Shown here: positions 1-34,226 of the stretch, in pieces
Layout of the letters: each line of letters begins with the position of its first letter
How positions within the stretch are numbered: position 1 is the stretch's first letter
Origin: Synergistaceae bacterium
GTDB taxonomy: Bacteria > Synergistota > Synergistia > Synergistales > Aminobacteriaceae
DNA: 34,836 nucleotides
Assembly (NCBI GenBank): GCA_031267575.1
Contig: JAIRYN010000021.1
Span: 1-34,836, forward strand
Direction: 5' to 3'
Notes under the pieces: generated by a model
Databases searched by the model: none
What the model was told of the DNA's origin: nothing
What the model saw: only the letters and a program-made list of their open reading frames with translations
Position numbers and translations under genes: made by a program

Positions 1-711
1 TTGGCGGAACGGATAACATCTACGGTCAGTTTGTTTGCGGATTCGCAAAGTATCGAGATATATGCTTGTAACGTGAACTGTCATATTTTACGCAACTATG
101 AGAACTTTGCTGAAAGCCGCAATTGCAAACAATATTTTCCTAATAATATTCCGTTTGCAAAAGGGAATAGCCGTTTTGTCGATTGCGGCGCATATACTGG
201 AGATACGCTGACGGAACTGGTGAACAACGTGGGTTTGGTTGACACATATATAGGTTTTGAGCCTGACAGAGATACTTTTTCAAAACTCGCAAAAACCGCT
301 TCGGGCTTGCGGCAAAAATTAGGACAAGCGTTCCTCTATCCGTGTGCTGTAGGCAGAGTGAATGAGTCATTGACAATAAGCGGTACAGTCGGAATGTTTG
401 CTCTGTCCGAGACCGGAGGACAATCTATACAAGTTGTAAGATTGGATGACGCGCTTGCGGCGTTTGCTCCGACTATGCTCAAGATGGACATAGAGGGCGC
501 GGAAATTGACACGATACACGGTGCGAGCGAACTGATTCGCGCTCACCACCCTGACCTCGCAATCTGTGTATACCATAAGATAAGCGATTACTGGGAGATA
601 CCGGTAATGCTTCATGAGTTGAATCCAAATTACGAATTCTACCTGCGTTCGCACAGTTCCTGTACATTGGAAACCGTGTTGTACGCTACAGAGAGGAGCC
701 GATCAATATAG
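1..711 (+). CDS. FkbM-family SAM-dependent methyltransferase (5' partial)
   Basis: Seen: 236 residues open from the first base. The S-adenosylmethionine-binding motif DCGAYTGDT is at residues 61-69, GFEPD at 85-89, LKMDIEGAE at 160-168 and the closing YLRSH at 214-218. These are the hallmarks of the FkbM family, which usually O-methylates sugars or small molecules. The segment before motif I (QYFP near residue 44) matches the lead-in of longer FkbM proteins, and the family usually has more sequence ahead of it. The TTG at base 1 is therefore probably not the real start, and the gene is cut by the window edge. The stop lies 2 bases before the next ATG, so it is probably co-transcribed with the two radical SAM genes. 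That context suggests modification of a glycan, lipid or peptide; the substrate is unknown. Base composition is AT-rich compared with the rest of the window. Confidence 0.85.
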   Translation: MAERITSTVSLFADSQSIEIYACNVNCHILRNYENFAESRNCKQYFPNNIPFAKGNSRFVDCGAYTGDTLTELVNNVGLVDTYIGFEPDRDTFSKLAKTASGLRQKLGQAFLYPCAVGRVNESLTISGTVGMFALSETGGQSIQVVRLDDALAAFAPTMLKMDIEGAEIDTIHGASELIRAHHPDLAICVYHKISDYWEIPVMLHELNPNYEFYLRSHSSCTLETVLYATERSRSI

Positions 712-713
712 CT

Positions 714-1784
714 ATGGAAGCGCTAAATATAGCTATGGCAATTCCTCAGCGCGTATCTTTGGCGGAACGATTACCGCTTTCTGTGCCGTTTTCGTTGCAC
801 GTGTTTCCATCGTATCATTGTAATTTCAAATGTGCATATTGCGTACATAGTTTAAGCTCGGCGGAGCTAAACGACATGCAGTTCAGAAAACAAACGATGC
901 CTCTTGAGGTATTCAAAAAAACAGTTGACGATTTACGTGAGTTTGCAACTCCGCTGAAAGCGATGATATTCGCTGGACATGGAGAACCTCTTACGCATAG
1001 TGCCATTGCCGAAATGGTAGCTTATGCAAAAATGGTAGCTTATGCAAAGCGGAATAGCCCCGCGGAACGCATTGAAATTGTGACGAATGGAACGCTATTG
1101 AATCAGACTTTGTCGGACGCTCTGATAAACGCGGGTTTAGATAGGCTTCGAGTATCGTTGCAGGGTGTAAATGCTGATGATTACGAACGAATCTGCGGAG
1201 TTCGGATTGATTTCGAGCGATTTGTGGAGAATTTGTCGTATTTTCATCACAACAAGAAAAATACAAATGTGTTTATCAAGATTATTGACATTGCTCTGAG
1301 CAGTCCAATAGAAGAAAGTCCAATAAAAGAAACGGTATTTCACGCCCTGTTTGACTCAATTTGCGATACGTCCGCGATAGAACATCTTATTCCGTTCATT
1401 GAGAAAATCGACCATAGCGCATTAGGCGGAGATTTGACGCAAACTAAACACGGCGATGGAGTTGTCCGTAGAGTTGACATTTGTGCTATGCCGTTTTATA
1501 TGCTTGTGTTGCTGCCGAACGGAGATGTAACCGGGTGTTGCTCTATTCAACCGCCGACGATATTCGGAAATGTAATGAAAAACAGCCTCTTGGAAATATG
1601 GCGTGGAGATAAACGTCAAGCGTTTTTAGTTGAACAGCTGCAAAGCAGAAACCTAAACGCCGTCTGCAAAAAGTGTAGCGTGCCGGATTACGGAATGCAA
1701 GTCGGCGACTATTTAGACGATGACCGGGACCGTTTGCGGGAATTGTTTATGATTAATATAGTAAAAGGCCTAAAGTTAAAATAG
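714..1784 (+). CDS. Radical SAM/SPASM domain enzyme, copy 1
   Basis: Seen: 356 residues. The radical SAM cluster motif CX3CX2C is at Cys36, Cys40 and Cys43 (CNFKCAYC), and a glycine-rich GHGEPL motif is at 88-93. A C-terminal cysteine-rich half resembles a SPASM or twitch domain (Cys257, 275, 276, 318, 321), with PNGDVTGC and a GNV...LLEIWRG stretch typical of that domain. Known: SPASM radical SAM enzymes modify peptides, sugars or nucleotides using auxiliary Fe-S clusters. It follows the FkbM gene by 2 bases and is paralogous to the next gene. The start is ambiguous: ATG 714 and in-frame ATG 735 sit in two copies of a 13-bp repeat (705-717, 726-738), and the nearest Shine-Dalgarno-like AGGAG (694-698) is rather far from both. 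Two in-frame duplications lie inside the gene (MVAYAK twice; ESPI twice). The substrate is unknown. Confidence 0.82.
   Translation: MEALNIAMAIPQRVSLAERLPLSVPFSLHVFPSYHCNFKCAYCVHSLSSAELNDMQFRKQTMPLEVFKKTVDDLREFATPLKAMIFAGHGEPLTHSAIAEMVAYAKMVAYAKRNSPAERIEIVTNGTLLNQTLSDALINAGLDRLRVSLQGVNADDYERICGVRIDFERFVENLSYFHHNKKNTNVFIKIIDIALSSPIEESPIKETVFHALFDSICDTSAIEHLIPFIEKIDHSALGGDLTQTKHGDGVVRRVDICAMPFYMLVLLPNGDVTGCCSIQPPTIFGNVMKNSLLEIWRGDKRQAFLVEQLQSRNLNAVCKKCSVPDYGMQVGDYLDDDRDRLRELFMINIVKGLKLK
1012..1047 (+). repeat. In-frame 18-bp tandem duplication in radical SAM gene 1
   Basis: The unit AAATGGTAGCTTATGCAA is present twice head to tail and adds a second MVAYAK to the protein just after the GHGEPL motif. 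Radical SAM copy 2 has no such insertion at the aligned place, so it is a recent, frame-preserving gain. Confidence 0.9.
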
Positions 1785-1830
1785 CTAAAAACTAGTTTTT
1801 AAGTGAATTAAAGTAAAAGGCCTAAAGTTA
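1760..1830 (+). repeat. 19-bp direct repeat flanking the stop of radical SAM gene 1
   Basis: A 19-bp sequence at 1760-1778 (the last codons of the gene) recurs perfectly at 1812-1830 in the spacer, 52 bp away. This looks like a copied gene tail. The rest of the 100-bp spacer to the next gene is AT-rich, and I see no terminator in it. Confidence 0.85.
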
Positions 1831-1885
1831 GAATTTTATGTTTACTAATTCTTAACTTAAACTGCTATATGAAAGGTAGAAACTA

Positions 1886-2905
1886 ATGGCTCACATCAAA
1901 CAAATTTCAGGTGTTGACGACCGAGTGGAACTAGCGGAAGTATTACCGCTGAAATCGCCGTTTACATTGAACGTGTTTCCGACAAACGCTTGCAACTTCA
2001 AGTGTGTGTATTGTGCGCACAGTTTGGATGACGCAACGATACTCAAAGAACATGGACTTGACAAAAGTTTTATGAGTATGGACACAATGCGGAAAATCGT
2101 GGAACAAAGCAAAGTTTTTGAGCCGTATAAGCTGCTGTCGTTTAATGGTCACGGTGAACCTTTACTCAACCGCGATTTGCCGGATATGATTGCACTTGCC
2201 AACAAAGCCAATATTGCCCGGAGAATTGAGATTATCTCCAACGCGAGCTTACTCAAGCGCGAGTACGCCGACAGACTGATTGAATCGGGACTGACCAATT
2301 TACGCGTGTCCTTGCAGGGACTTAACGCCGAATCATACAAGAAAACAAGCGGCGTTGATGTTGATTTTGATAAGTTTCTTGCGCAGCTCGAGTATTTCCA
2401 TAAAAACAAACGACCGGAAATGGGTTTATTCGTGAAGATTATGGATGTGTCGCTGTCTGATGGTGATAAACAGCGTTTTTATGAGATGTTCGATGGGATT
2501 TCCGATAGAATGTATATAGAATATGTTCAGCCTGTCTATCATACGGTTGAACTATCGAGTGATCAGTCGAATTCAGACGTACAACGCAAGTATGACCGAT
2601 ACGGGAACGCGCATACTGCCAGAGTTGTCTGTCCTCTCGCGTTTTTTACGCTCAATGTATGGCCGAATGGTGATTATGACCTATGTGATGCTCCTTACAA
2701 ACCGTGCGCATTAGGAAATATCAGTCAACTAACTATGCGTGAGATGTGGGACGGAGAAACCCTCCGCAATTTCCGCTACAGACTACTTTGCGGTGAAAGA
2801 TATACTTTGGAGGGTTGCAAAAATTGTGTCGCACCCGACGATTGCTCTCAACCCTTAGATGTATTGGATAACTATGTAGAACAATTAAAACCGTTTTACG
2901 CTTAG
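1886..2905 (+). CDS. Radical SAM/SPASM domain enzyme, copy 2
   Basis: Seen: 339 residues with ATG 1886 behind GAAAGG. CNFKCVYC places the cluster cysteines at 36, 40 and 43 and GHGEPL at 88-93, the same residue numbers as the preceding gene. The C-terminal half has Cys249, 267, 274, 302, 311, 314 and 320 with PNGDYDLC and LGNISQLTMREMWDG, consistent with a SPASM auxiliary-cluster domain. It shares the N-terminal pattern LAE-LPL--PF-L-VFP with copy 1, so the two are probably tandem-duplicated and since diverged. Copy 2 has more C-terminal cysteines, so the auxiliary cluster content may differ. The substrate is not predictable. The neighbouring FkbM methyltransferase suggests two chemistries acting on one product. 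No canonical RiPP precursor is evident; a 35-residue ORF lies just downstream. Confidence 0.83.
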   Translation: MAHIKQISGVDDRVELAEVLPLKSPFTLNVFPTNACNFKCVYCAHSLDDATILKEHGLDKSFMSMDTMRKIVEQSKVFEPYKLLSFNGHGEPLLNRDLPDMIALANKANIARRIEIISNASLLKREYADRLIESGLTNLRVSLQGLNAESYKKTSGVDVDFDKFLAQLEYFHKNKRPEMGLFVKIMDVSLSDGDKQRFYEMFDGISDRMYIEYVQPVYHTVELSSDQSNSDVQRKYDRYGNAHTARVVCPLAFFTLNVWPNGDYDLCDAPYKPCALGNISQLTMREMWDGETLRNFRYRLLCGERYTLEGCKNCVAPDDCSQPLDVLDNYVEQLKPFYA

Positions 2906-2998
2906 ATTTGAAGAATTAGATTTGAAGAAATGGAGAAACTTGCTATCTGCTTGACTAAAGAAAGTATAGACCAATTGACTAAAGAAAGTATAGACCAA
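2902..2998 (+). repeat. Two tandem micro-duplications after radical SAM gene 2
   Basis: A 14-bp unit is doubled at 2902-2915/2916-2929 and overlaps the stop codon of the gene. A 24-bp unit is doubled perfectly at 2951-2974/2975-2998. Confidence 0.92.
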
Positions 2999-3037: not shown

Positions 3038-3358
3038 ACTTATTGACAAATGGGACCATCATCTACTAAAAAAGCCCAGAAGGCGGGGTCCGTACCTGTC
3101 TCCTGCCTTCTGTCTCCTGTCTCCTGTCTTCTGTTCTCCTGAGCTCAAATGTTTATGTTTCTTCGTTATTTCTGTCAGTCGTGAAGATTTCTCCTAAGTC
3201 ATTTTAGAAATATTTATTTCAGGACAACCGTCTCTTATATATTGCGCTCTGTCCGCTATTAGTCCGCGTTCGCACGCGACATTCCGCAAAATAAAAATCA
3301 TGCCGGTTATTCATGCCGGTTATTCATGCCGGAATAAGATGCGCGATCAGGACGTTCT
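3038..3358. other. Gene-free spacer with pyrimidine-rich and 13-bp repeats
   Basis: No convincing gene. It holds a pyrimidine-rich run of CTCCTGT-like units (about 3097-3140) and a 13-bp unit repeated 2.7 times (3298-3332, TCATGCCGGTTAT). AGAAGGC/GCCTTCT arms around 3078-3110 could form a weak hairpin. The stretch separates the AT-rich + strand cluster from the - strand operon, and transcription converges here. I see no strong terminator. Confidence 0.6.
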
Positions 3359-4189: not shown

Positions 4190-4200
4190 AGTGTCCTCCT

Positions 4201-4257
4201 ATAATTTTTCAATTTTCCTATAATTTTTCAATTTTCCTGTAATTTTTCAATTTTCCT
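4201..4257 (-). repeat. 19-bp unit repeated three times across a stop codon
   Basis: A 19-bp AT-rich unit (TAATTTTTCAATTTTCCTA on +) occurs about three times head to tail. It spans the last codons and stop of the Tm-1-like gene and the short spacer to the next gene. On the - strand each unit reads as purine-rich GGAAAA, close to the true AGGAGG start signal of the next gene. Confidence 0.92.
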
Positions 4258-5436
4258 GAACTGTTCGGCGAGGGCCTCGGCAAAGGCGTCGTCGTTGATG
4301 TGGTGTGGCACGCGGATGACCTTCCTCCGATCAGTCAGCTTGACCGTCGCCTCGATAGCCTCAAAAAGAGCTTCATCCGCCTCCAGGTCGTAGAAGGGCT
4401 GCCCCGGAGCGTCGATAGCGGAAACCCCGCCTTCGGGAAGAAGAAAACGGACCTCACCCTCGCACTGATTGAGTTTTTCGCCGATCCAGCGCGCCATAGC
4501 GGCGTTTTCTTCCTTCGTCGTGCGCATGAGCGTCACATTGGCATTGTGCGCGTAGAGGTTGCGTCCTTTATATTTTTCTGGTACGGTGTTCATAGCTCCA
4601 AAGTTGACCATATCCAACGCCCCGACGCTACCCACATAGGGAAGTTTTGTGCGGATGACGGCCCCCAGACGATCAGGGCCAGCGCTCATCACCCCACCCA
4701 TGTGCAAGTCGCAGATTTCGGTCAAAGTGACGTCGATGACGCGCTTTAACATCCCGGAGTCGATGAGCTTCTCGAAACACTGGCCACCGATTCCCGTAGC
4801 GTGGAAAATCAACGGCTCGTATTCGTTCTCGAAAATGTTCCGCAAATTTGTCACACAAGGCGTCGTGACGCCGAACATCGTCATGCCCAACAGCGGCTTC
4901 GTGTCCGCGATATCGGGAATGGCGTTTTTTACCATGCCGGCCATGGCGTGAGCCGCGTTACCCAACACCGCCCGGGAAACGGGATTCAACCCCGCCACAT
5001 CCGCCACGGAGGCCATCATACAGATGTCGGTGGCTCCCACATAGGGAGTAGTGTCTCCGGAGGCGACAGTCGAGACCATTAGCTTGGGTGTACCCACCGG
5101 CAGACTTCTCATACCGCGGGTGACCAGTGCCGTGTTTCCCGAACCACCCATTCCCAGCACGCCGCCGATGTCGTCACGTCCCAGCAGAAATGCCTCCAAA
5201 GCCTCGCTCATGGCCGTCACCGCGCTGCCCCGATCGAGCCCCGCGCTGAGAAAATTAGGGATCTTAGGGTGATGCCTAGCAACATCGGCATTGGAGACGT
5301 CGACACAGTTTTTATGCTCGAAAATGCCTACGTCGATCAGCACGCATTCGACGCCCGCGCGCTCCAGAAGCTCTTTGGCGTAGGACAGCTCCGTATACTT
5401 GGTGTCGCATGTTCCAATAATGTAGGCTTTTTTCAT
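4228..5436 (-). CDS. Tm-1-like ATP-binding domain protein (UPF0261)
   Basis: Seen: 402 residues, the usual size for the family. It opens MKKAYIIGTCDTKYTEL, has VLGMGGSGNTALVTRGMRSLPVGTPKLMVSTVASG in the middle and TPYVGATDICMMASVADVAGLN after it, then a C-terminal half ending in the LLPEGGVSAID and RVPHHIND blocks. Known: the family is named after the tomato Tm-1 resistance protein, whose N-terminal domain binds ATP. The bacterial role is undefined, but the gene is commonly paired with the TIM-barrel gene found next here. ATG 5436 follows a GGGGGA stretch and lies 23 bp after the cupin gene. The C-terminus runs into the 19-bp repeat array, so its last residues (KIEKLQEN) are partly repeat-encoded. 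Confidence 0.9.
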   Translation of the reverse strand: MKKAYIIGTCDTKYTELSYAKELLERAGVECVLIDVGIFEHKNCVDVSNADVARHHPKIPNFLSAGLDRGSAVTAMSEALEAFLLGRDDIGGVLGMGGSGNTALVTRGMRSLPVGTPKLMVSTVASGDTTPYVGATDICMMASVADVAGLNPVSRAVLGNAAHAMAGMVKNAIPDIADTKPLLGMTMFGVTTPCVTNLRNIFENEYEPLIFHATGIGGQCFEKLIDSGMLKRVIDVTLTEICDLHMGGVMSAGPDRLGAVIRTKLPYVGSVGALDMVNFGAMNTVPEKYKGRNLYAHNANVTLMRTTKEENAAMARWIGEKLNQCEGEVRFLLPEGGVSAIDAPGQPFYDLEADEALFEAIEATVKLTDRRKVIRVPHHINDDAFAEALAEQFRKIEKLQEN

Positions 5437-5906: not shown

Positions 5907-6269
5907 CTCAGGATACGAAACAAAATCATGTCATCGTCATAAATCCCAAGAACTATCAAGAACTATCAAGAATTATCAAGAACTATCGAGAAGTGCGCCT
6001 TGCTTTGTGGAAATCGCTTTGTGGAAATCCGTGAAATTTCCGCTTCTTCCTCAATATCGGCTCCTCTGTCGGGTTGCTCGGAGCCTTCTTGTCCACCTTC
6101 TTGTCCACCTCCTTTCTGATTTTCTTTCTGATTTTCTTTCTCTCTTTCTCTCTTTTGCTTTCTCTTGCTTTCTTTTTATTCTTCTCTCGATATATAGATA
6201 TTATATAGATATTATTTTGAAGGTTGATATTATTCTAGCATCGATACCCACAACTGTTATATACTAAAC

Positions 6270-6298: not shown

Positions 6299-6435
6299 GC
6301 GTAAATTAATTTTTTTATCGAATCCTACTATAAAGAAAAAATTTAAGTCATTTTGATTCAGTCATTTTGATTCGATTGGGCAAAAAAATGAGCAAAAAAT
6401 GAGCGAAAAATGAAATTTGAAGGGGGGAAAAGATA

Positions 6436-7329: not shown

Positions 7330-8444
7330 GCAGCGCGCGAACGACAGGAGCATCAACAACGCGTACTCGCAACGGACTGTTGAACCTGTTGTCGTTGGCG
7401 GCGCTCCTTTACTTTCTCTGGTGGGCGCCGACAAACCTCGACGGCTATAAGCTACGCGTCATCAACCTCATTGCCATCAACGGCATTTTGGGGCTTTCGC
7501 TCAACTTGATCTATGGCATAGCCGGCATGTTCTCCCTGGGGCACGCGGGATTCATGGCGATAGGTGCCTACGTCTCCGCGCTCCTGATCCTAACCCCCGC
7601 GCAAAAAGTGACCCAGTGGATCCTGGAACCCATCGCGCCATGGCTTTTGAACTTTCAAGTCCCGTTCATCATCTCCCTGATTCTGGCCGGGTTGGCGGCG
7701 GCTTTTGTGGGATGGCTCATCGCCCTACCAGTGCTGCGCTTGGGCGGCGACTACTTGGGTATCGCGACGCTGGGGTTCGCGGAAATCATCCGCATTTTGA
7801 TCGTCAACCTGACGCCCATCACTAACGGATCTCTGGGCTTAAAGGGGATTCCCGCTCACACCGATTTATGGATGAGCTACGGTTGTTTCCTCGTGATTCT
7901 CGTCTTCGTGACGCGCCTGATGAACAGCAACTTCGGCAATGTTCTCCGGGCGGTTCGCGACGATGAGGTTGCGGCCCGGACGATGGGAGTCGACACCTTC
8001 CGGGTCCGCACTCTGGCCTTCACCCTCGGCTGCTTCGGCGGCGGGCTGGGCGGGGCACTGATGGGGAACCTCATCACGACCATCGACCCCAAAATGTTCA
8101 TGATCACCCAAACCTACAATCTCCTGATGATCGTGGTTGTCGGGGGGTTAGGTTCCATCACGGGCAGCGTCATTGGTTCGATCCTAGTCACGACGATGCT
8201 GGAGTGGCTCCGGTTCGTCGAGAACCCCATCACGCTCGGTTCTCTTCGTATTCCTGGTATTCCGGGCATGAGAATGGTCATTTTTTCTGTGCTGCTAATC
8301 GCGGTTATCATCTTCCGTCGTGAGGGGATCATGGGAACGCGGGAGTTCTCGTGGAACTGGTTTTTTCCGCCGCTTAAGCAACCTGAGGGCAAGACGCCCG
8401 ATGACATAGATGACATATTGGAGGAGAGGAGGCGGGGCCGATGA
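7326..8444 (+). CDS. livM: Branched-chain amino-acid-type ABC transporter permease LivM
   Basis: Seen: 372 residues with many membrane spans. Diagnostic blocks are GILGLSLNLIYGIAGMFSLGHAGFMAIGAY, LRLGGDYLGIATLGFAEIIRI, NSNFGNVLRAVRDDEVAARTMG (coupling loop) and VVGGLGSITGSVIG. It starts at ATG 7326, overlapping livH by 4 bases, and its stop overlaps livG by 4 bases, so translation is coupled. It pairs with LivH in the inner membrane. A charged C-terminal tail (GKTPDDIDDILEERRRG) extends past the last span. Confidence 0.93.
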   Translation: MSSARTTGASTTRTRNGLLNLLSLAALLYFLWWAPTNLDGYKLRVINLIAINGILGLSLNLIYGIAGMFSLGHAGFMAIGAYVSALLILTPAQKVTQWILEPIAPWLLNFQVPFIISLILAGLAAAFVGWLIALPVLRLGGDYLGIATLGFAEIIRILIVNLTPITNGSLGLKGIPAHTDLWMSYGCFLVILVFVTRLMNSNFGNVLRAVRDDEVAARTMGVDTFRVRTLAFTLGCFGGGLGGALMGNLITTIDPKMFMITQTYNLLMIVVVGGLGSITGSVIGSILVTTMLEWLRFVENPITLGSLRIPGIPGMRMVIFSVLLIAVIIFRREGIMGTREFSWNWFFPPLKQPEGKTPDDIDDILEERRRGR

Positions 8445-9244: not shown

Positions 9245-9260
9245 GGGAGGAAGCCGGAAC

Positions 9261-9983
9261 ATGCTGGACATCCAGAACCTGAACATCTGGTACGGGGGTA
9301 TTCACGCGGTGAAGGGCATCGACGTCTCCATCCAGCGGGGGGAGATCGTCACATTGATCGGCGCTAACGGCGCGGGCAAAAGCAGCACGATCCGCGCGAT
9401 AGCCGGACTTGTGCGGGGATTCAAGGGATTTATCGGCTATACTCCTCATTCGGAGACTCAGCCCATTCGCCTAAACGGGCGTCAGCCGGAGGAGATGGTT
9501 CGGATGGGCATCGCACTGAGCCCGGAAGGCCGCCGAATCCTGCCTCAACTCACTGTGGAAGAGAATTTGCGGTTGGGAGCCTACACCCGCAACGACAAAG
9601 TAGAGATTGCCCACGATATGAACTACGTCTACGACCTGTTCCCGCGCTTGAAAGAACGTCGCTCGCAGAAGGGCGGGACGCTGTCGGGGGGGGAACAGCA
9701 AATGCTCGCGGTGGGGCGCGCCCTGATGAGTCGCCCCGACCTCTTGATGTTGGATGAACCCTCGCTGGGACTAGCTCCCATGCTGGTTGGAGAGGTTTTC
9801 GACGTCATACGGGAAATCAACCGTCAGGGGAAAACGATTCTGCTCGTGGAACAAAACGCCTTCGCGGCGCTCTCGATCGCTCACAAAGCCTACGTCCTGG
9901 AGGTCGGGTCGATTGCCCTGCAGGGGACGGGGAAAGAACTGCTCCACAACCCTCAGGTACGGGAAGCCTACCTTGGCGGATGA
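9261..9983 (+). CDS. livF: Branched-chain amino-acid-type ABC transporter ATPase LivF
   Basis: Seen: 240 residues from ATG 9261, chosen because GAGGGAGG lies just upstream; an in-frame GTG at 9237 would overlap livG and lacks such a site. Walker A GANGAGKSS is at 34-42, the signature LSGGEQQML and Walker B LLMLDEPSLGLAP are intact, and the switch His is replaced by Gln in LLVEQNA, as is usual for LivF. An insert around residues 55-80 (PHSETQPIRLNGRQPEEM) is a few residues longer than in the standard family. The stop lies in an 11-bp tandem duplication (9976-9986/9987-9997). Confidence 0.93.
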   Translation: MLDIQNLNIWYGGIHAVKGIDVSIQRGEIVTLIGANGAGKSSTIRAIAGLVRGFKGFIGYTPHSETQPIRLNGRQPEEMVRMGIALSPEGRRILPQLTVEENLRLGAYTRNDKVEIAHDMNYVYDLFPRLKERRSQKGGTLSGGEQQMLAVGRALMSRPDLLMLDEPSLGLAPMLVGEVFDVIREINRQGKTILLVEQNAFAALSIAHKAYVLEVGSIALQGTGKELLHNPQVREAYLGG

Positions 9984-10294
9984 CCAGCGGATGACCAATT
10001 GAATGAAAGCAAAACGTATGATTGGACGTGCTTAATCCTTATTCCGCTAAAACTTAAAATATGGGACAATTAAAATTTAAAATATGGGACAATTGCTCAA
10101 AGGGACAGTTGCTCAAAGGAAAGGAGGTGGACACGGGAGACAGGAGAAATAAGGAACACCGCGGCCAGAAGGATAGTCGGAAGGATATCGGAAGAATAAT
10201 GGAAATTGGAAGGATAATGGAAATTGGAAAGATAATGGATAATGGATAATGGAAATTTGTAGGTAATGTTGACTCTATTGAGGAGGTATGTGAA
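9984..10294. other. livF-livK spacer built of tandem duplications
   Basis: About 310 bp. An 18-bp unit recurs at 10054-10071 and 10077-10094 (period 23). A GACARTTGCTCAAAG unit is doubled near 10088-10118. ATAATGGAAATTGGAA-type units fill about 10190-10250. AGGAGG before livK is at 10281-10286. I see no strong promoter or terminator. livK may be read through from livF or have a promoter I cannot recognise. Confidence 0.7.
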
Positions 10295-11465: not shown

Positions 11466-11816
11466 TTTTACGATAAAGCAATGAGAAAGCCAACAGCTTC
11501 AGTCGTTGGATGAGAGTTGTTGGATGAGAGATGAGAGTCGTTGGATGAGAGTCGTTGGATAAAATTGGATGAAATTGGATGAGAATCGCAACGCCGCCGA
11601 CGGCGGCGTTTGTTTTGTATTTAGTTTCTTGTCATATGTCTACTTTCATGTTAAACTTCTTTAATAGCCTATCAACAATAGCCTATCAACAATAGCTTAT
11701 CAACAATGGCTTATCAACAATAGCCTATCAACGTGAGATACGGGGCGGAACACGAGCGGGATATCAAGCGGGATATCAATTAGAATTCCATGACTTTAGT
11801 CGTGGGAGTATGTCAA
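11466..11816 (+). repeat. Dispersed intergenic repeat, copy A (MITE-like)
   Basis: Copy A shares long blocks with 16796-17068: TTTTACGAT-AAGC-ATGAG at the left, the GC hairpin with the following ~50 bp, CTTATCAACGTGAGAT-CGGGGCG-AACACGA, and GTGGGAGTATGTCAA at the right. Near the left is a hairpin CCAAC..CGTTGG (11490-11509). Near the right is CCATGACTTTAGTCGTGG (11788-11805). Such subterminal hairpins recall IS200/IS605 ends, but no transposase is present. Copy A has five 14-bp units AATAGCCTATCAAC at 11663-11732, where copy B has one. It ends 14 bp past the lptD stop. Confidence 0.75.
11590..11622 (+). terminator. Rho-independent terminator-like hairpin in repeat copy A
   Basis: AACGCCGCC (11590-11598), loop GAC, GGCGGCGTT (11602-11610), then TGTTTTGTATTT. 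On the + strand this would end the livHMGFK transcript. The same structure with loop GTT is in copy B, so the terminator travels with the repeat. Confidence 0.7.
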
Positions 11817-14117: not shown

Positions 14118-15410
14118 CTACCAGACGATCTTCCAGTTGGATTCTTCGCGGACAACGCCCAAAGTGCGGCTGATCAGAGTGCGGATCAGAAGGATACGTT
14201 TGACCGCCACGATCTTAGCCCGCTCGACGCCCGTCCAATCAATCGTATACCCGTCTCGCAGGGCTCCTCTGAAATCCGAGGCTTTTCTCAACTCCGACTC
14301 GAAAGTCTCCTTGGAAAAAAGTTTTTGCGAGGATTTCGACAGCATGGAGTACATGGCGTCGGGATCGTGTTTCATCCAAAGTTCCAAAAAAGCCCGTACC
14401 GTTTTTTCTCGGGAAGAGTACGCTTTGTCGGCCTCGGTTTCCTGAGTTTTGGCTTCTTCAGAGAGAGGCTCTTGATTCCCTCTCGACCGTAGAGCTTCCA
14501 CGAAATCCTCCATGCTCTGGGACTCCTCTGGCTCCATCACAATGATCTCCGGTTCCGTCGCCACGTTTTTAGTGGGCTGGGTAGTTTCTGTGGTAGTTTC
14601 TGTGGTAATTTCTGTGCTGGGTTCGACAAGGCTGACGGACGCTTCAGGCTGCTTTGGAGTTGCCGGTCTGGGGTTTCGATTCGAGGCGCGTTTCGTAGTG
14701 GAGACCGGTTTTGGCGCGAAAGGCGGTTCTTGGGGGGCACGTTGCCCTGAAGCGGGTGGCAACTCCACGATCACTACATCAAGCAAGTCCTCAGGATTTC
14801 CACTGTTCTCACTGTTCTCATTGGCAAACAGAACTTCTGAGTTATCCAATGAGTTATCCAATGAGTTATCCGAAAAAGCGAAAATACGCTCGTCGTACAC
14901 GCCCATTCCTTGAACAGCGAGGGCGAAATCTCCCTCGTTCTGTTTAGGGAAAAAAACTAGCCCCTGAACCAATCCACTGAGAGGTTGGTCCAATGTCCGG
15001 TCGTAGCGGATGGGTTTGACGCGCTTTCCCTCGGCCGTAACTAGCGCGATTTTCTCGGAAAGAGGGGAAAAATTGAGTGGGCGGGGTCCAAAAGCGTACA
15101 CGGTAAAAAGGAAGGGTTCCGCCTCTCCGATGGACAGGCCCGAGATAAACCCCTCTTTGTAGGAGCGCCGTTCTGACTCTGTCATTCCCGTTCGGACCGC
15201 CTCCGAGTCCACCCAGGGGTCCACCAGTTCCTCAGGATAGTGCACGACCCAGACAAGACAATCTTGCCCCCAGTGAAAAGACGTCCGGTTTTCGAGAATC
15301 CGGATCGTATCCTCGAAGGAGTTGGCGTAGCAGCGGCTGGCGTTCCCAAGCCAGAAAGCGAACAAGGCAAGCGCTCCTGAAAGCGCAGGAAAAAAGCGAC
15401 GAAACTTCAC
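14118..15410 (-). CDS. Exported protein of unknown function in the lpt operon
   Basis: Not recognised. Seen: 430 residues from GTG 15410, 6 bp behind the preceding gene with only a weak ribosome site, so probably translationally coupled. A signal peptide ends near ASRCYA. A folded N-terminal half (about 30-175) is followed by a long low-complexity Pro/Thr/Glu linker (about 200-320), then a C-terminal domain of about 95 residues (KTVRAFLELWMKHDPDAMYSMLS...SNWKIVW) that resembles NTF2-like or DUF4878-type small domains in pattern. The linker carries in-frame tandem duplications: SLDN three times, NSEN-type units, and TTET repeats. Position before lptC-lptD suggests an envelope role. Confidence 0.7.
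   Translation of the reverse strand: MKFRRFFPALSGALALFAFWLGNASRCYANSFEDTIRILENRTSFHWGQDCLVWVVHYPEELVDPWVDSEAVRTGMTESERRSYKEGFISGLSIGEAEPFLFTVYAFGPRPLNFSPLSEKIALVTAEGKRVKPIRYDRTLDQPLSGLVQGLVFFPKQNEGDFALAVQGMGVYDERIFAFSDNSLDNSLDNSEVLFANENSENSGNPEDLLDVVIVELPPASGQRAPQEPPFAPKPVSTTKRASNRNPRPATPKQPEASVSLVEPSTEITTETTTETTQPTKNVATEPEIIVMEPEESQSMEDFVEALRSRGNQEPLSEEAKTQETEADKAYSSREKTVRAFLELWMKHDPDAMYSMLSKSSQKLFSKETFESELRKASDFRGALRDGYTIDWTGVERAKIVAVKRILLIRTLISRTLGVVREESNWKIVW
14580..14616 (-). repeat. In-frame 15-bp tandem repeat (TTETT linker)
   Basis: GTGGTAGTTTCTGTG-type units, about 2.5 copies with period 15, encode a Thr/Glu-rich linker in the 430-residue exported protein. Confidence 0.9.
14801..14871 (-). 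repeat. In-frame 9-bp and 12-bp tandem repeats (SLDN linker)
   Basis: A 9-bp doublet (about 14801-14820) and a 12-bp GAGTTATCCAAT unit in three copies (14839-14871) encode repeated SLDN motifs in the linker of the 430-residue exported protein. Both periods are multiples of three. Confidence 0.9.
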
Positions 15411-16550: not shown

Positions 16551-16585
16551 TGTGCATACCTCCTCGAAACATACGGTTTTCCCTT

Positions 16586-16669
16586 AAGTTTTCCACTAAG
16601 TTTTCTATATAAGTTTTCTATATAAGTTTTCCCTATATAAGTATAAGTTTTCCCTACATAAGTTTTCCA
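16586..16669. repeat. Tandem AAGTTTTCTATAT-type array upstream of the lpt operon
   Basis: About six imperfect units of AAGTTTTC plus CTATAT/CCTACAT. On the - strand the units read AAAACTTATATAG and offer several TATAAT-like boxes ahead of the lpt operon start. A TTGACG lies further upstream near 16692-16697. The array may have multiplied or displaced promoter elements; no single promoter can be named. Confidence 0.8.
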
Positions 16670-16726: not shown

Positions 16727-16843
16727 ATGCGTTTCGAGGCGCGAAACCACGGTTTCGTCTTGGCCTCAGTGGCCATAGCGCTTTTACTTTGGGCCTTTTA
16801 CGATCAAGCGATGAGAAAGCCAACGGCTTCAGTCGTTGGATGA
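16727..16843 (+). pseudogene. 38-residue pilin-N-terminus-like fragment, possibly cut by repeat copy B
   Basis: ATG 16727 opens 38 residues with a hydrophobic stretch GFVLASVAIALLLWAFYDQ, which recalls the N-terminal helix of type IV pilins and pseudopilins, although the usual Glu at +5 is absent. The last 16 residues lie inside repeat copy B, so the rest of a gene could have been lost by insertion. There is no ribosome site I would trust. The segment also holds a perfect hairpin CGAAACC-AC-GGTTTCG (16742-16757). Chance is a serious alternative. Confidence 0.2.
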
Positions 16844-17068
16844 ATTGGATGAAATTGAATGAGAATCGCAACGCCGCCGTTGGCGGCGTTTGTTTTGTAT
16901 TTGGTTTCTTGTCATAGGTCTACTTTCATGTTAAACCCCTTTTTATGGCTTATCAACGTGAGATGCGGGGCGAAACACGACCAGCATATCAATGCCAGCA
17001 TATCATGCCAGGATATCAATGCCAGGATATCATGCCAGGATATCAATGTGGCTGTGGGAGTATGTCAA
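16796..17068 (+). repeat. Dispersed intergenic repeat, copy B (MITE-like)
   Basis: Copy B aligns with 11466-11816. The central ~75 bp (16860-16935) is nearly identical, including the hairpin. The left stem CCAACGGCTTCAGTCGTTGG is perfect at its ends, while the right subterminal hairpin is degraded. Here the units ATATCAATGCCAGG/ATATCATGCCAGG are amplified about five times (16986-17046), where copy A has only two related units. It ends 1 bp before the pyrG stop. No transposase is encoded. Confidence 0.75.
16870..16902 (+). terminator. Terminator-like hairpin in repeat copy B
   Basis: AACGCCGCC (16870-16878), loop GTT, GGCGGCGTT (16882-16890), then TGTTTTGTATTT. No established + strand gene lies upstream, so here it is probably cargo of the repeat. 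Confidence 0.55.
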
Positions 17069-17069
17069 C

Positions 17070-18739
<1,670 letters not shown>

Positions 18740-18832: not shown

Positions 18833-20548
18833 TTATCGCAGGTAGGACAATGGATTCGCCGGGCTGTTGCCGTTACGGATCTCAAAGTGGAGGTGAGGCC
18901 CTGTTGCCCTTCCCGTAGATCCCACGCGAGCGATATTCTGCCCCACGGAAACCCTGGCTCCTTGTTTGACCAAAAAAGAATTGCAGTGAGCGTAAAGCGT
19001 AGACTGACCGCTGCTATGTTCCACGACCACGACCTTACCGTACCCTCCCATCCAACCAGCGTAGACCACTTTACCTTCTCTAGAGCTATTGATGACTGTC
19101 CCTCTCCCCGCCTTGATGTCGATGCCTGTGTGGAAATCTCTGCGCTTTGTAATAGGGTGACGCCGCCAGCCAAAAGGACTATTGATTTTACCCATGACCG
19201 GCCATCGGAAACTCCGTGAGACCTTTTGCACAGTTTTGCCTGTGTTCTTAGACGAGGTGGATGTGGATTTTTTCTCGACGACTCGGGTTTCGGCCACCGC
19301 CTCGGGACGCGCGCCGGGCAGGAAAATTTCATTATCCACTTTTAAAGCAACGGGATTGATCGTAGGGTTGGCTTTGCGAATTTTGTCCACGGCCACCTGG
19401 TAACGTTTGGCGATGTTATCGATGTTATCCCCTTTCTTTAATTTGTAGAAAATACCGTCCTGGTTGGGTATTCGCAAAACAGCGCCCGGACGCAGCACAG
19501 AAGAGTTTTTGAAAATGTTGCTGCCCACCAGGGTATCCACTTCCAAGTTTTGGGAGTTCGCGATAGACCACAAGCTATCCCCCGTCGCCACGACATAAGA
19601 AACGACCGTCACGGGAAGAACTTGTTCCCGCAAAGCCGCCGCGCGCATCTTGCGAGTCCGGACTTCCTCTAGAGTGCTCTCGATATCCTCAGGTTCGTTA
19701 GGAACGAGAATAATCTGTTGGGCAGCCAGACGATTGGCGTCCTTCAAGCCGTTGGCGCGAAGAATATCCTGAGCCGTGATCCCGCCATATTGGAAGGCGA
19801 TGTCGGACAGGGTTTCCCCCTTTTTGACCACGTGTTCGCGCCAACCCGCCCCGATCTCCGCGAGAATGATGTCCTCGTCTGGGAGTTCCATACCCGGCAA
19901 GTCGTCGAGAGAATCGTCGGGCAAACGCATCCCATCTTCCATTGTGTTGAGGATGATAGACTCGAAATCCGCCAAATCTTTGGGTAAGGGCCCAAAATCC
20001 CCCATTGGTTCGCTGAGAAGCATGGGGAGGGGTAAGGAAGCCATATCGACCACAGCTGCAAAGCTCAAATCCGCGCTTTCGACCTTGGGCAAGGAGGAAA
20101 ACACGTTCATTTCTCTAAGTTCTTTTTCTCTAAGTTCTTTTTCTCTGAGTTTTTTTTCTCTGAGTTCTTTTTCTCTGAGTTCTTTAAGGGATAACAACTC
20201 CCCCCCTTTTGGATCCAAGAACTCATCTTCTTCGCTCTCTTCACCGATGCTCTCTTCACCGATGATCGCCGCGTAAGTTGCGCCTTTTGTGGACGTGGCT
20301 TCAGCCATTCGTTTCATGTCGACATTGTCGCTCAGATCGACCACAATAAAACCACTTGCGGATAAACTTTCCTCGTTCTCCCGATCTCTCAGGTTTCCCC
20401 AAGCGATCCCCGAAAAACGGCTGCCGGCAGATACCATCAAAAACACGGACAACCCCAACATGAAAAAGATCACAAGCCCGAAGCCCCATTGAAATTCTCT
20501 GGAGGAGGAAACCTTCTTCTTTTCCCGTTTGGATGTTCTCAAGTACAT
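18833..20548 (-). CDS. Membrane-anchored LysM/M23 murein endopeptidase
   Basis: Seen: up to 571 residues. One N-terminal transmembrane segment (about 22-42) is followed by a Glu/Leu-rich stretch with five tandem LREKE units (122-146). Three LysM peptidoglycan-binding domains lie at about 238-283, 317-361 and 366-411. The C-terminal M23 LytM/lysostaphin domain has zinc ligands His473 and Asp477 (FHTGID), catalytic His521 (YAH) and His554 (HLHFE). All are intact, so it should be an active DD- or LD-endopeptidase, or an NlpD/EnvC-like factor, in the periplasm. GGGAGGG abuts ATG 20548 with almost no gap, so TTG 20542 (6 bases away) is the better start by spacing. Its own terminator follows. Confidence 0.9.
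   Translation of the reverse strand: MYLRTSKREKKKVSSSREFQWGFGLVIFFMLGLSVFLMVSAGSRFSGIAWGNLRDRENEESLSASGFIVVDLSDNVDMKRMAEATSTKGATYAAIIGEESIGEESEEDEFLDPKGGELLSLKELREKELREKKLREKELREKELREMNVFSSLPKVESADLSFAAVVDMASLPLPMLLSEPMGDFGPLPKDLADFESIILNTMEDGMRLPDDSLDDLPGMELPDEDIILAEIGAGWREHVVKKGETLSDIAFQYGGITAQDILRANGLKDANRLAAQQIILVPNEPEDIESTLEEVRTRKMRAAALREQVLPVTVVSYVVATGDSLWSIANSQNLEVDTLVGSNIFKNSSVLRPGAVLRIPNQDGIFYKLKKGDNIDNIAKRYQVAVDKIRKANPTINPVALKVDNEIFLPGARPEAVAETRVVEKKSTSTSSKNTGKTVQKVSRSFRWPVMGKINSPFGWRRHPITKRRDFHTGIDIKAGRGTVINSSREGKVVYAGWMGGYGKVVVVEHSSGQSTLYAHCNSFLVKQGARVSVGQNIARVGSTGRATGPHLHFEIRNGNSPANPLSYLR
20110..20263 (-). repeat. In-frame 15-bp arrays in the M23 gene
   Basis: Five units of CTCTRAGTTCTTTTT (20110-20182) encode LREKE repeats. 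A perfect doublet of GCTCTCTTCACCGAT (20234-20248/20249-20263) encodes IGEES twice. Both have period 15, in frame, in the linker between the membrane anchor and the LysM domains. Confidence 0.93.
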
Positions 20549-23716: not shown

Positions 23717-24393
23717 TGGAGCGAAGGCTATTTTTCGCTCCCTCCGTGCTGGGGGCCGATCCCTTGAATGTGGGCAACGCTGTGGATTCTCTGAGAGGAA
23801 ATTTCGATTGGCTTCACCTGGACGTTATGGACGGGCATTTTGTTCCCAACATTTCCTTCGGTCCTGGGATGGCGCGGGCGTTGCGTAGAAAATATCCCGA
23901 TGCCTTCCTCGACACTCACTTGATGGTGGATCATCCGGACGCTTTTTTGTCCGCTTTCGCAGAAGCCGGAGTTTCTCAAATCTCGGTCCACGCGGAGGCG
24001 GAACCTCAATTACTTCACGACCGCCTAGCCCGTATTCGGAGCGCGGGGCTCGCGGCGGGGGTGGCCATCGCTCCCCCCACTCCTGTGGAGTTGCTGCGTT
24101 TCGCGCTTCCCGTGGTTGACGTGGTGATGGTGATGTCGGTGACTCCGGGTTTCGGTGGCCAGAGATTGATTGAAGAAACCCTGGAAAAGACGAGGGACCT
24201 GGCTCGTTTGCGCGCTGTGGAAGGATATAATTACCGGATACAGATGGACGGCGGTATTGACCTGGAAAATGTCGCGCAAGTCGCGGACGCGGGTTGCGAT
24301 ATTTTTGTCGTAGGCAGCGCCCTTTTCGGTAACACCGATCCAGGTCATTACCTGAAAGAAATGCGGCAACTCGCGCAAAATCGTTTGTGTTGA
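23716..24393 (+). CDS. rpe: Ribulose-phosphate 3-epimerase
   Basis: Interconverts ribulose-5-phosphate and xylulose-5-phosphate in the pentose phosphate pathway. Seen: 225 residues from ATG 23716, overlapping the previous stop as TAATG; the upstream open frame is read-through. Motifs are FAPSVLGADPLNV, WLHLDVMDGHFVPNISFGPGM (catalytic Asp), DTHLMVDHPD, MSVTPGFGGQ, and QMDGGIDLEN with VVGSALFG for phosphate binding. The stop codon lies within an 11-bp unit repeated three times (24387-24420), so the tail is repeat-affected. Confidence 0.95.
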   Translation: MERRLFFAPSVLGADPLNVGNAVDSLRGNFDWLHLDVMDGHFVPNISFGPGMARALRRKYPDAFLDTHLMVDHPDAFLSAFAEAGVSQISVHAEAEPQLLHDRLARIRSAGLAAGVAIAPPTPVELLRFALPVVDVVMVMSVTPGFGGQRLIEETLEKTRDLARLRAVEGYNYRIQMDGGIDLENVAQVADAGCDIFVVGSALFGNTDPGHYLKEMRQLAQNRLC

Positions 24394-24420
24394 TTTTGTG
24401 TTGATTTTGTGTTGATTTTG
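24387..24420 (+). repeat. 11-bp unit repeated three times over the rpe stop codon
   Basis: TGTGTTGATTT units run head to tail from the last codon of rpe into the spacer. Each unit brings an extra in-register TGA-like triplet. Confidence 0.92.
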
Positions 24421-24460
24421 TAAAATACATAAAAAGGCATATAAAAAGGAGGCTTTGTTT

Positions 24461-25327
24461 ATGCCCTCTTCCGATAAAGACGAAGCCCTGAGGGAACTGG
24501 GGAGCATGGCCAGGGGCCGGCGCGAAGACGTGTCGGTCTCTCTGGAGGAAATTTTCGAGAGAACAAGAGTGCGCGTGGAGTTTCTTCGAGGCATAGAGGA
24601 AGGAAACTATCAAGGATTTCCCGATCTCGTGTACACCAAGGGTTTTGTTCGCACGTATCTGGGCGTGATCGGCGCGGAGGATATGAAAGACGAGTTCATG
24701 TCATGGCTGAACAAGGAAAACGTGTCCCAAATACGGGAGCTTCCGCCTCGAAATGTCCTGGGTAACGGTACGTTGCCGACGAAAGGCTTCAAACCGGCTT
24801 CTCATTTTTGGTTGTTCGTAGTTTTGATCTTGATCTTGATAGGATCGGGGGGATATGTGTGGTATTCTTGGGCAAGCGGACTCATTTCCGACCCTTTCCC
24901 CCCAGCGATTGATGCGCGGAGAATTTCCAGTGAGGTTGTTTCCGACGAAGTGAAATCCGACGACGTCTCCGTGTCTCTGCTGAGTAACGCTGCAGGCTCC
25001 GCGAATTATCCCATGGAGATCCTGCCGCCGGCATCCCGAAGTATTGCCCCGAACCCTGAGCCCATGAAACCTCACCTCCTTATTAGGGCCAGAATGGACG
25101 TCTGGATGAAGGTGACGATTGCTGGAAAAGTGCTCTATAGCAACACTTTAAAGGCCGGATCTCAGGTATCCTGGGATTTGCCGTCGAGGGCCCAGGTGAC
25201 TTACGGGCGTCCTCACGGAGCGGAAGTTGTGCTGAATGGCAAAGAACTGGGAATTCCCAATCCGAGAGCGTCGAAAACGGAGACCTATTTTTACGAGCCA
25301 GATGGAACTTATCGCCAGGCACAATGA
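24461..25327 (+). CDS. RodZ-like helix-turn-helix membrane protein
   Basis: Seen: 288 residues from ATG 24461, eight bases after AAAGGAGG; an upstream TTG in frame is less well placed. The N-terminal HTH_25-type domain (SLEEIFERTRVRVEFLRGIEEGNYQGFPDLVYTKGFVRTYL) is followed by a transmembrane helix (about 109-133, FWLFVVLILILIGSGGYVWYSW), a variable periplasmic linker and a C-terminal DUF4115-like beta domain (LLIRARMDVWMKVTIAGKVLYS..., GAEVVLNGKELG). Known: RodZ links MreB to the elongation machinery. This order ahead of rimO and pgpA is seen in other bacteria. It ends in ATGA overlapping rimO. Confidence 0.82.
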   Translation: MPSSDKDEALRELGSMARGRREDVSVSLEEIFERTRVRVEFLRGIEEGNYQGFPDLVYTKGFVRTYLGVIGAEDMKDEFMSWLNKENVSQIRELPPRNVLGNGTLPTKGFKPASHFWLFVVLILILIGSGGYVWYSWASGLISDPFPPAIDARRISSEVVSDEVKSDDVSVSLLSNAAGSANYPMEILPPASRSIAPNPEPMKPHLLIRARMDVWMKVTIAGKVLYSNTLKAGSQVSWDLPSRAQVTYGRPHGAEVVLNGKELGIPNPRASKTETYFYEPDGTYRQAQ

Positions 25328-25364
25328 GGTCTACAATGAGGTCTACGGTGAGGTCTACGGTGAA
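25321..25364 (+). repeat. 12-bp unit repeated about four times at the rimO start
   Basis: Units of the type ACAATGAGGTCT / ACGGTGAGGTCT create four consecutive in-frame candidate starts (ATG 25324, ATG 25336, GTG 25348, GTG 25360) and give the N-terminus MRSTMRSTVRSTVN. Confidence 0.93.
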
Positions 25365-27360: not shown

Positions 27361-27384
27361 GAGCTTCTCCTCAATATCCATAAT

Positions 27385-27442
27385 CAACAAAAATAAACAA
27401 AAATAAACAAAAATAAACAAGGCCTCCTAAGGAGGAGGCCTT
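27385..27442 (-). terminator. Terminator of the cold-shock gene plus 10-bp repeat array
   Basis: On the - strand AAGGCCTCC (27442-27434), loop of six, GGAGGCCTT (27427-27419), then T-rich TTGTTTATTTT units. The T-rich side is itself a 10-bp unit (AAATAAACAA on +) repeated about three and a half times (27385-27420). The repeat has therefore extended the U-tract region. Confidence 0.85.
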
Positions 27443-32014: not shown

Positions 32015-32050
32015 GTCGCTATAATAGGTCGCTATAGTAGAAAACGATAC

Positions 32051-32230: not shown

Positions 32231-32258
32231 ATTGAGTTTAATTGAGTTTATTGAGTTT
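32231..32258 (+). repeat. 10-bp unit repeated three times before the iron-sulfur protein
   Basis: ATTGAGTTTA units run head to tail up to 10 bp before the start codon of the NapH-like gene. I see no Shine-Dalgarno site between the array and the ATG; the duplications may have displaced it. Confidence 0.9.
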
Positions 32259-33221: not shown

Positions 33222-33231
33222 TATAATGTTT

Positions 33232-33325: not shown

Positions 33326-33335
33326 TTTTTTAAAA

Positions 33336-33412
33336 GCGGCAGTAGCTCAGTTGGATAGAGCGAAGGCCTACGGAGCCTTAGGTCGCGGGTTCGAATCCTG
33401 CCTGCCGCGCCA
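33336..33412 (+). tRNA. tRNA-Arg (anticodon ACG)
   Basis: 77 nt including encoded CCA. Acceptor arms GCGGCAG and CTGCCGC, discriminator G. Anticodon stem-loop AAGGC-CTACGGA-GCCTT (ACG, expected to be edited to ICG). T-arm GCGGGTTCGAATCCTGC. It lies 10 bp after tRNA-Ser and probably shares its promoter and the terminator downstream. Confidence 0.95.
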
Positions 33413-33438
33413 AATTTTATAACCAAATAACCTCACTT

Positions 33439-33480
33439 AACCCCAGAAGCCTAGGCAAGACTAGGATTTTGGGGTTTTTC
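33439..33480 (+). terminator. Terminator after tRNA-Ser/tRNA-Arg
   Basis: Outer stem AACCCCA (33439-33445) with TGGGGTT (33470-33476), inner CCTAG/CTAGG, then TTTTTC. Confidence 0.85.
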
Positions 33481-33603
33481 ATGCCTAAACTAACACCTCC
33501 TAAAACCTATATTGAAGATCTTCTGTTGAAGATCTTCGCGGCCTCGATGTAACGCTGGGGAATTTCAATACGCTGCGCGGATAGCGTTACCTGGAACTGT
33601 TTC

Positions 33604-33991
33604 TTGGACGCGTTTGAAGGAGGGAAGATTGGTTTCGACGAGGTCTCCAACAAGCTGGAAGAAGGATTGAACGGCCTTATCAGTTATTTTAGGCCAAAAA
33701 ACAAAAAAAACGCGTTGAACACGTCGAGGAAATACACGAAAAATTTAGAGCGTGAATTTAGAGCGTGTTTGAATGGTTTTTGCGAGGAATTTGAATGGTT
33801 TTTGCGAGGAAATGGATATCGACCGCGCTATTGCGCCGGATGTGACCGCTTACAAAAATATCGAAAACCTAAACGTAGGAGAAAACGACTCTGAAAGTGT
33901 CGAATACAACGCGCTGCTAAATCGATGGTCTCAAGGTCAGAAAGGCGCGTCCGCGTTGTCGGACGTTCTGAACAAGATAAAAACGAAATAG
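33604..33991 (+). pseudogene. ORF broken by tandem micro-duplications
   Basis: Two overlapping frames (from TTG 33604, and one ending at TAG 33989-33991) are one reading frame split by a duplicated 22-bp unit at 33771-33814. Removing one copy joins ...FRACLNGFCEE directly to MDIDRAIAPDVTAYKNIENLN...VLNKIKTK. A second, 13-bp doublet just upstream (33744-33756/33757-33769) also breaks a frame: without it the preceding codons read VEEIHEKFRACLNGF, and a run of A near 33703 may be a third lesion. The product is not recognised; it looks charged and helical. It sits between two tRNA pairs, a common landing place for mobile DNA, but no integrase is present. Confidence 0.6.
33744..33814 (+). repeat. 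13-bp and 22-bp frame-breaking tandem duplications
   Basis: TTTAGAGCGTGAA and the following TTTAGAGCGTG copy have period 13. GAATGGTTTTTGCGAGGAA occurs at 33771 and 33793 (period 22). Neither period is a multiple of three. Confidence 0.92.
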
Positions 33992-34105
33992 TTTAACGCT
34001 TTTTGGCAAACAAGCACCGCGAGTTGCTCTTTTTTGTCCGCTTTGTCCGCGAAAACCTATCAATAGTTCCAGGACACCATGTACCGACTATGCCAGTCCG
34101 CTAAC

Positions 34106-34134
34106 TTGACAAGGAAAGATCCTTGATATAAAAT
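34106..34134 (+). promoter_or_regulatory. Promoter for tRNA-Tyr/tRNA-Thr
   Basis: TTGACA (34106-34111), 17-bp spacer, TAAAAT (34129-34134). It is about 90 bp ahead of tRNA-Tyr. Two perfect duplications lie in between: 13 bp at 34152-34164/34165-34177 and 15 bp at 34182-34196/34197-34211. These lengthen the leader. Confidence 0.75.
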
Positions 34135-34226
34135 AAAAAAAGTTTGGTTTTGTGGTTTAGCTTAGTGGTTTAGCTTACTAGAAGGAAAGTATAGCTAAGG
34201 AAAGTATAGCTGATGTTTTTCAATAA

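Follow-up and report, generated by a model that had tools for sequence, protein, structure and literature searches.

Short tandem duplications with a strand-matched, topoisomerase I-like mark in a Synergistaceae genome

Introduction

Short head-to-tail duplications of 2-19 bp were found to arise de novo in the Escherichia coli topoisomerase I (TopA) mutant topA R168C (Bachar et al., PMC6954433). In that paper the origin of repeats from non-repeating sequence is called unknown, and the question of whether TopA acts directly or via supercoiling was left open; passages of PMC7587558 concur that both the origin of the repeats and the role of TopA are open. The same passages state that topoisomerase I favours C at position -4, and passages of PMC9352719 give TCNTTA/T as the in vivo motif of the E. 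coli enzyme, with the cut at TA four bases after the C. Here we describe natural tandem duplications in contig JAIRYN010000021.1 of an uncultured Synergistaceae bacterium (34,836 bp; the entire contig, hereafter the window) and in the genome to which it belongs (2.76 Mb in 76 contigs). With a probability of roughly three in four, we consider these duplications to be products of TopA, a type IA topoisomerase, cutting, copying and rejoining one DNA strand.

Results

Density of the duplications

Perfect head-to-tail runs with periods of 7-60 bp were collected by an exact scan, and those with a period of at least 9 were merged into loci. The window contains 58 perfect runs, compared with 1-6, 1-5 and 0-7 in Markov simulations of order 1, 2 and 4, respectively (eight each, 24 in total). 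There are 44 merged loci, which corresponds to 12.6 per 10 kb. Fifteen arrays had been listed in the initial annotation, and all were recovered by Tandem Repeats Finder; in the exact scan 14 had at least two perfect copies, whereas the array at 32012-32037 proved imperfect (93% matches). The density claimed there to be extraordinary is far above that of composition-matched controls.

The analysis covered 39 genomes, with samples of 1.10 Mb from other Synergistota and 1.22 Mb from other phyla. In a first sample of the genome studied here (own genome) 171 loci were found in 362,082 bp, i.e. 4.7 per 10 kb, whereas the six genomes whose PyrG is most similar had 0.22-0.88 per 10 kb overall and 0-4.8 within spacers. 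The remaining Synergistota samples had 0-1.5 per 10 kb, except for a value of 2.1 that represents one locus in a 4.8 kb sample. Other phyla, pooled over 1.22 Mb, had 0.50, and shuffled sequences did not exceed 0.25. The closest named contigs by PyrG (77% identity) belong to Synergistaceae metagenome-assembled genomes from goat rumen and reticulum.

A larger sample of the own genome (1,062,708 bp in 61 stretches, the window among them) yielded 513 loci. Spacers hold 380 of these, a density of 16.8 per 10 kb, and the 133 genic loci correspond to 1.6 per 10 kb. The period was divisible by three in 121 of the 133 genic loci. Density varies along the genome (chi2 116 on 60 degrees of freedom), and the window ranks second among the 61 stretches in spacer density.

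Gene limits are approximate, as they were derived from a home-made codon score. By this score 79% of the own genome was called coding, compared with 83-91% in the six genomes closest to it by PyrG; the G+C contents were 0.51 and 0.57-0.62, respectively. The score fails on one genome of the set (G005, a single 2.7 Mb contig), in which just 26% of the sample was called coding, the MutL domain was not found and RNase HII lies in two frames; perhaps this is a frameshift-rich assembly or one using another genetic code.

Homology at the duplication ends

Each duplication was written as X-U-U-Y, and end homology was counted as the number of extra matching bases, zero extra bases meaning exact ends. 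Among 309 isolated spacer duplications 127 had no end homology, 52 had one base, 19 two, 20 three and 91 at least four. Duplications simulated at random sites in the same spacers gave 54% with none, 28% with one, 11% with two, 4% with three and about 3% with at least four. About two thirds of the isolated spacer duplications (198/309, with 0-2 bases) thus look homology-free, near the expectation for random sites. Slippage or repeated rounds of duplication could explain the homology-bearing rest.

A cytosine at -4 on the same strand at both ends

In the exact-end events (n = 163) C was present at position -4 of X with a frequency of 0.50 and at -4 of U with 0.40, and G at +4 of U with 0.40 and at +4 of Y with 0.49, versus 0.26. 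Among the remaining positions, up to 15 bases outside and 9 bases inside the unit, none approached this enrichment. The C at -4 of X pairs with the C at -4 of U (odds ratio 4.7, p = 6e-6), and the G at +4 of U with the G at +4 of Y (odds ratio 5.4, p = 6e-7), from which it follows that both marks lie on one strand. The combination of C at -4 of X with G at +4 of Y, the opposite-strand arrangement expected of staggered cuts, was depleted (odds ratio 0.26, p = 4e-5). Same-strand C pairs were seen in 95 strand views, as opposed to 15.0 (standard deviation 3.6) at random positions in the same sequences, and in an 8 by 8 grid of offsets the highest odds ratio (5.2) was that of -4/-4.

The frequency of the mark was compared between unit lengths. 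The same-strand pair was present in 364/2814 repeats of period 4-7, a set of short chance repeats that served as an internal control, in 8/23 of period 8 and in 91/161 of period at least 9. It was found in 80/144 events outside the window, and when the dispersed REP-like family (see below) and repeated units were dropped, it persisted in 86/154 (odds ratios 4.0, 5.8 and 0.29). As 154 distinct units were kept from the 161 events, and the unit sequences are mostly unrelated, the view in the initial annotation that a process and not a repeat family was at work was upheld; the independence claimed for the individual duplications applies to most units and breaks down for the arrays at 11501-11582 and 16836-16862, which sit in the REP-like family. 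In genes, the marked strand was the template strand in 18 of 21 cases (expected 56.5%, p = 0.005). In co-directional spacers no significant link to transcription was detected (template strand in 24/36).

Similarity to topoisomerase I cleavage sites

For sequence comparison, 87 events were oriented by the C pair alone, and motif counts were made on 322 strand views without selection. T occurred at -5 in 59/87 events at one junction and in 58/87 at the other. The pattern TCNNN^ was present at the junction in 89 of the 322 views; at 14 other offsets its counts were 15-35. For TCNWT^W there were 23 views at the junction and 1-7 at 12 other offsets. As a sequence pattern, the TCNNN^ mark matches the E. 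coli topoisomerase I motif.

The two junctions are not alike. T at -1 was found in 43/87 events at the 5' junction and in 16/87 at the 3' junction (p = 2.5e-5), and A or T at +1 in 63/87 and 41/87, respectively; the extended motif TCNTT^A/T was enriched at the 5' but not at the 3' junction. This asymmetry at -1 and +1 fits a model in which just the 5' junction is a true cleavage and the 3' junction was formed by rejoining, a step for which the pocket for C alone matters.

The type IA topoisomerase of the genome

A search with PF01131 detected one type IA topoisomerase in the own genome, which was aligned in a set of 30 frames from the 39 genomes. The residues corresponding to E. coli R168, R169, D172, R173 and Y177 (numbering via the 4rul chain) are intact, R254 being the counterpart of R168, i.e. 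there is no R168 substitution. In the columns conserved in at least 25 of the 29 other sequences, past the variable N-terminus, the own enzyme differs just by a V to I and an S to A replacement and by a loop insertion. A lesion in the catalytic residues was therefore rejected; only the insertion stands out.

The insertion comprises about 14 residues and is in part a perfect 27-bp tandem duplication, whose two ends both show C at -4 when the non-coding strand is read. An unrelated insertion is present at the same position in another genome (G011). The loop is a candidate cause of the raised rate, possibly by slowing rejoining; it is also quite possible that it is merely another product of the process. 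A duplication in topA is not surprising in itself, because at the genic density given above about one third of genes of such length are expected to contain one.

Age of the process and occurrence in other genomes

In the own genome, pairs of period 11-20 numbered 345 without a mismatch and 236 with one mismatch per 1.06 Mb. The corresponding counts were 16 and 65 for the other Synergistota (1.10 Mb) and 19 and 53 for the other phyla (1.22 Mb). In the own genome the mark was present in 38/81 pairs with one mismatch, 24/149 with two and 47/525 with three, the last taken as baseline. That the mark fades by two mismatches suggests that the process is recent or that turnover is fast.

In an exploratory, one-sided test, chosen after the perfect-copy sets had proved non-significant, pairs of period 11-20 with at most one mismatch were marked in 12/34 cases in other Synergistota (p = 0.0009) and in 8/35 in other phyla (p = 0.019). 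These pairs, perhaps including those of the other phyla, and the mark at both ends of the topA duplication are hints that TopA could be a general maker of bacterial tandem repeats and the present lineage a natural TopA mutator in which the process was amplified and its own topA rewritten. We regard this extension as tentative, with the odds somewhat against it.

Arrays in the window

Twelve of the 19 exact repeats with a period of at least 9 in the window carry the mark, clustered ones counted. The arrays are the following (strand given where assigned by the mark).

1012..1048: 18-bp tandem duplication, in frame in the radical SAM open reading frame (ORF) 714-1784 (MVAYAK twice) although the codon score puts it in a spacer; the C-4 pair is seen on both strands when one of the two possible alignments is taken
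2902..2929, - strand: 14-bp perfect duplication spanning the end of ORF 1886-2905; both ends marked
2951..2998, + strand: 24-bp perfect duplication in a spacer; both ends marked
3298..3332: 13-bp unit, 2.7 copies; ends ambiguous over 9 bases
4197..4258: 19-bp unit, about 3.2 copies, located at the end of ORF 4228-5436 and in the spacer that separates it from ORF 3359-4189; one of two overlapping runs marked, + strand
5947..5992: 10-bp unit, 4.6 copies at 91%; perfect core 5947-5972
6002..6029: 14-bp perfect duplication in a spacer; no mark
6084..6141: two adjoining 12-bp arrays
6191..6215: 11-bp unit, 2.3 copies
6346..6373: 14-bp perfect duplication in a spacer; no mark
6383..6404: 11-bp perfect duplication in a spacer; no mark
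8400..8417, - strand: 9-bp in-frame duplication inside ORF 7326-8444; both ends marked
9976..9997, - strand: 11-bp perfect duplication spanning the end of ORF 9237-9983; both ends marked
11501..11582: nested 7-14 bp arrays on the dispersed REP-like element
11663..11732: 14-bp unit, 5 copies at 92%; perfect core 11663-11696
14838..14871: 2.8 copies of a 12-bp unit that keep the frame of ORF 14118-15410
16576..16663: nested arrays of 13-25 bp units in a spacer, upstream of ORF 15417-16550; perfect core 16597-16631
16836..16862, - strand: 9-bp duplication (16836-16853) plus a third, diverged copy within the REP-like element
18691..18738: three copies (96%) of a 16-bp unit, located upstream of pyrG
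20110..20264: 15-bp arrays within the LysM/M23 ORF 18833-20548, made up of LREKE-type repeats and a duplicated GEES
24384..24421: 11-bp unit, 3.5 copies
25321..25363: overlapping pair of 12-bp arrays where the rimO ORF begins (MRSTMRSTVRSTV)
27382..27420: 10-bp unit, 3.9 copies at 96%
32231..32258, - strand: two adjoining 9-10 bp duplications; 32241-32258 marked
33742..33811, - strand: 13-bp duplication directly followed by a 22-bp perfect duplication; the second marked
34033..34050, + strand: 9-bp perfect duplication; both ends marked
34152..34211, - strand: 13-bp and 15-bp perfect duplications four bases apart, preceding the tRNA-Tyr gene; both marked
34454..34471, + strand: 9-bp perfect duplication; both ends marked; found at two more places in the own-genome sample

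The LREKE insert of the LysM/M23 ORF is lineage-specific, not being present in any of six aligned relatives. The adjacent ORFs 714-1784 and 1886-2905 each encode a radical SAM protein; matches to NCBIfam models for such proteins are numerous, and the best 25 listed for each ORF are all below their cut-offs.

Two dispersed families were noticed in the spacers. The REP-like element contains an inverted repeat (CCAACGGCTTCAGCCGTTGG, then ATGAGAATCG and further bases) and is found in the window at 11498-11582 and 16828-16862; all of its 18 matches, located in 13 own-genome stretches, are in spacers, and its TTGGATGA part is frequently repeated in tandem. The second motif (CATACTCCCACGACTAAAG) includes a 14-mer that occurs in up to 41 copies in the own-genome sample.

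Discussion

Proposed mechanism

That the duplications are dense, have weak end homology and carry strand-matched C-4 marks is read directly from the DNA, as are the cut sites, their polarity, the match to the motif and the preservation of reading frames. The identity of the enzyme, the copying step, the rejoining by TopA and the order of events are what we infer, and they could be arranged as follows. TopA would cleave one strand at a site of the TCN(A/T)T^(A/T) type and stay on the 5' end, while the free 3' end would be extended by a polymerase for about 8-25 nucleotides, displacing the old strand. TopA, its pocket again occupied by a C at -4, would then join the new 3' end to the 5' end to which it is bound. 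With the stretch now present twice in that strand, replication would fix the tandem duplication. Such a route would need no pre-existing repeat, double-strand break or Ku. Duplications in spacers would survive selection, as would genic ones that preserve the frame, and some arrays would later be lengthened by slippage or further rounds.

Several observations weigh against this mechanism. The same-strand C pair is missing in 70/161 exact events; these may have arisen by another route, or the preference of TopA may be loose. The -4 offset is not prominent once end homology reaches two bases, and end homology of at least four bases is much more frequent than at random sites (91/309 versus about 3%). 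The -4 row of the offset grid has smaller side peaks (odds ratios of 3.8 with U -7 and 2.7 with U -3). Pairs inside the unit also exceed the position-shuffle null (36 versus 8.6 views), and so do opposite-strand pairs (54 versus 18.7 views); the latter are above the shuffle null, though below independence, because each end is marked so often. Spacer density is 26.4 per 10 kb between convergent, 19.1 between co-directional and 15.9 between divergent genes; the excess of convergent over divergent spacers runs counter to the simple twin-domain supercoiling expectation, a comparison confounded by selection on promoters. The own TopA has no lesion of the R168 or R35 type. The perfect-copy sets of the other Synergistota (n = 30) and of the other phyla (n = 29) bear no significant mark. 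Finally, the E. coli hotspots had no common motif and no match to known cleavage sites (PMC6954433).

Alternative explanations

Replication slippage with weak repair was one of the causes proposed in the initial annotation. Slippage would here act between short repeats already in place and be frequent because mismatch or flap repair is weak. It may cover part of the 91 spacer duplications with at least four bases of end homology, multi-copy arrays do occur, and slippage probably lengthens or makes some of them. In contrast, the 198 duplications at chance-level homology do not call for it, and it predicts no strand-matched C-4 mark. The assumed weakness of repair was not found: MutS, MutL, the PolA 5' exonuclease, SbcD and RNase HII (rnhB) are present above cut-off in the own genome, and a RecJ-like protein matches below the family cut-off in the own genome and its relatives alike. 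Among the seven families searched no loss was specific to the own genome, and loss of mismatch or other repair was rejected. As the source of most duplications, we consider slippage improbable. The other cause proposed there, an active duplication mechanism, is supported, and the strand-matched marks indicate a specific enzyme.

We regard it as equally improbable that another enzyme preferring C at -4 was responsible, or that TopA cut twice and the freed piece was inserted elsewhere, e.g. into the sister, without copying. Two cuts would likewise leave both ends with T at -5 and C at -4 on one strand. However, the ends differ at -1 and +1 and are hence not equivalent cuts, and the genome contains one type IA enzyme.

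Staggered double-strand breaks, or pairs of nicks on opposite strands, that are filled in and joined end to end can also yield tandem duplications free of homology; adjacent nicks in plants are cited as a possible model in PMC6954433, and marks at both ends, taken alone, would suit two cuts. The C-4 marks should then be on opposite strands, the very arrangement that is depleted in our data (0.26, versus odds ratios of 4.7-5.4 for the same strand), which speaks against such breaks as the main route. Ku was found in none of the 39 genomes, and because it is absent from all of them it cannot explain the excess in the own genome. We consider this route very unlikely.

The explanation that we rate lowest is that the duplications are artefacts of assembly or sequencing, or else members of a dispersed repeat family. 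Although the genome is in 76 contigs and some arrays lie within the REP-like family, genic density is one tenth of spacer density, genic periods keep the frame, one-mismatch copies bear the same mark, and the single REP-like family decorates few arrays, the results standing without it. The unit lengths would also be too varied for target duplications of one transposon.

Comparison with known systems

In the open-access literature searched, which leaves subscription papers largely outside, no earlier report of such a mark was found, and topA-linked tandem duplications in bacteria were represented by PMC6954433 and the papers citing it. New in the present case are a natural genome with R168C-like events at high density and a mark at the level of single bases that points to direct action on one strand. 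The 161 natural exact-end events carry this enzyme-like mark at base resolution, favouring one strand and one polarity. It can serve as a signature for finding natural TopA mutators in other genomes, and it makes the question of direct action versus supercoiling testable on existing E. coli data.

Uneven loads of tandem repeats among related genomes and growth of spacers have been described for the Portiera endosymbionts of whiteflies (PMC7821994), and in the uneven repeat load the own genome is similar. The Portiera passages name neither a topoisomerase nor microhomology, and the state of dnaQ is tabulated there; unlike Portiera as described in them, the own genome measures 2.76 Mb and has the repair genes that were searched. 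With the E. coli cleavage motif, as given in the passages of PMC9352719, the duplications share TC at -5/-4 and A or T around the cut, but those data come from trapped cleavage complexes, whereas our sites border duplications that have become fixed, and only one of the two borders shows the full motif.

The closest likeness is to E. coli topA R168C (PMC6954433). In both cases the duplications are short and head-to-tail, with units of 2-19 bp there and about 8-25 bp here, topoisomerase I is implicated, and the events are independent of pre-existing repeats, which in the own genome is true for about two thirds (198/309) and not for 91/309. They differ in that R168C is a laboratory point mutant, whereas this is a natural genome in which the equivalent of R168 is intact; we therefore class it as working like R168C and not as that mutant. 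In E. coli no motif was found and the mechanism was left open, whereas here TCNNN^ is present, matched in strand, at both ends of the duplicated unit.

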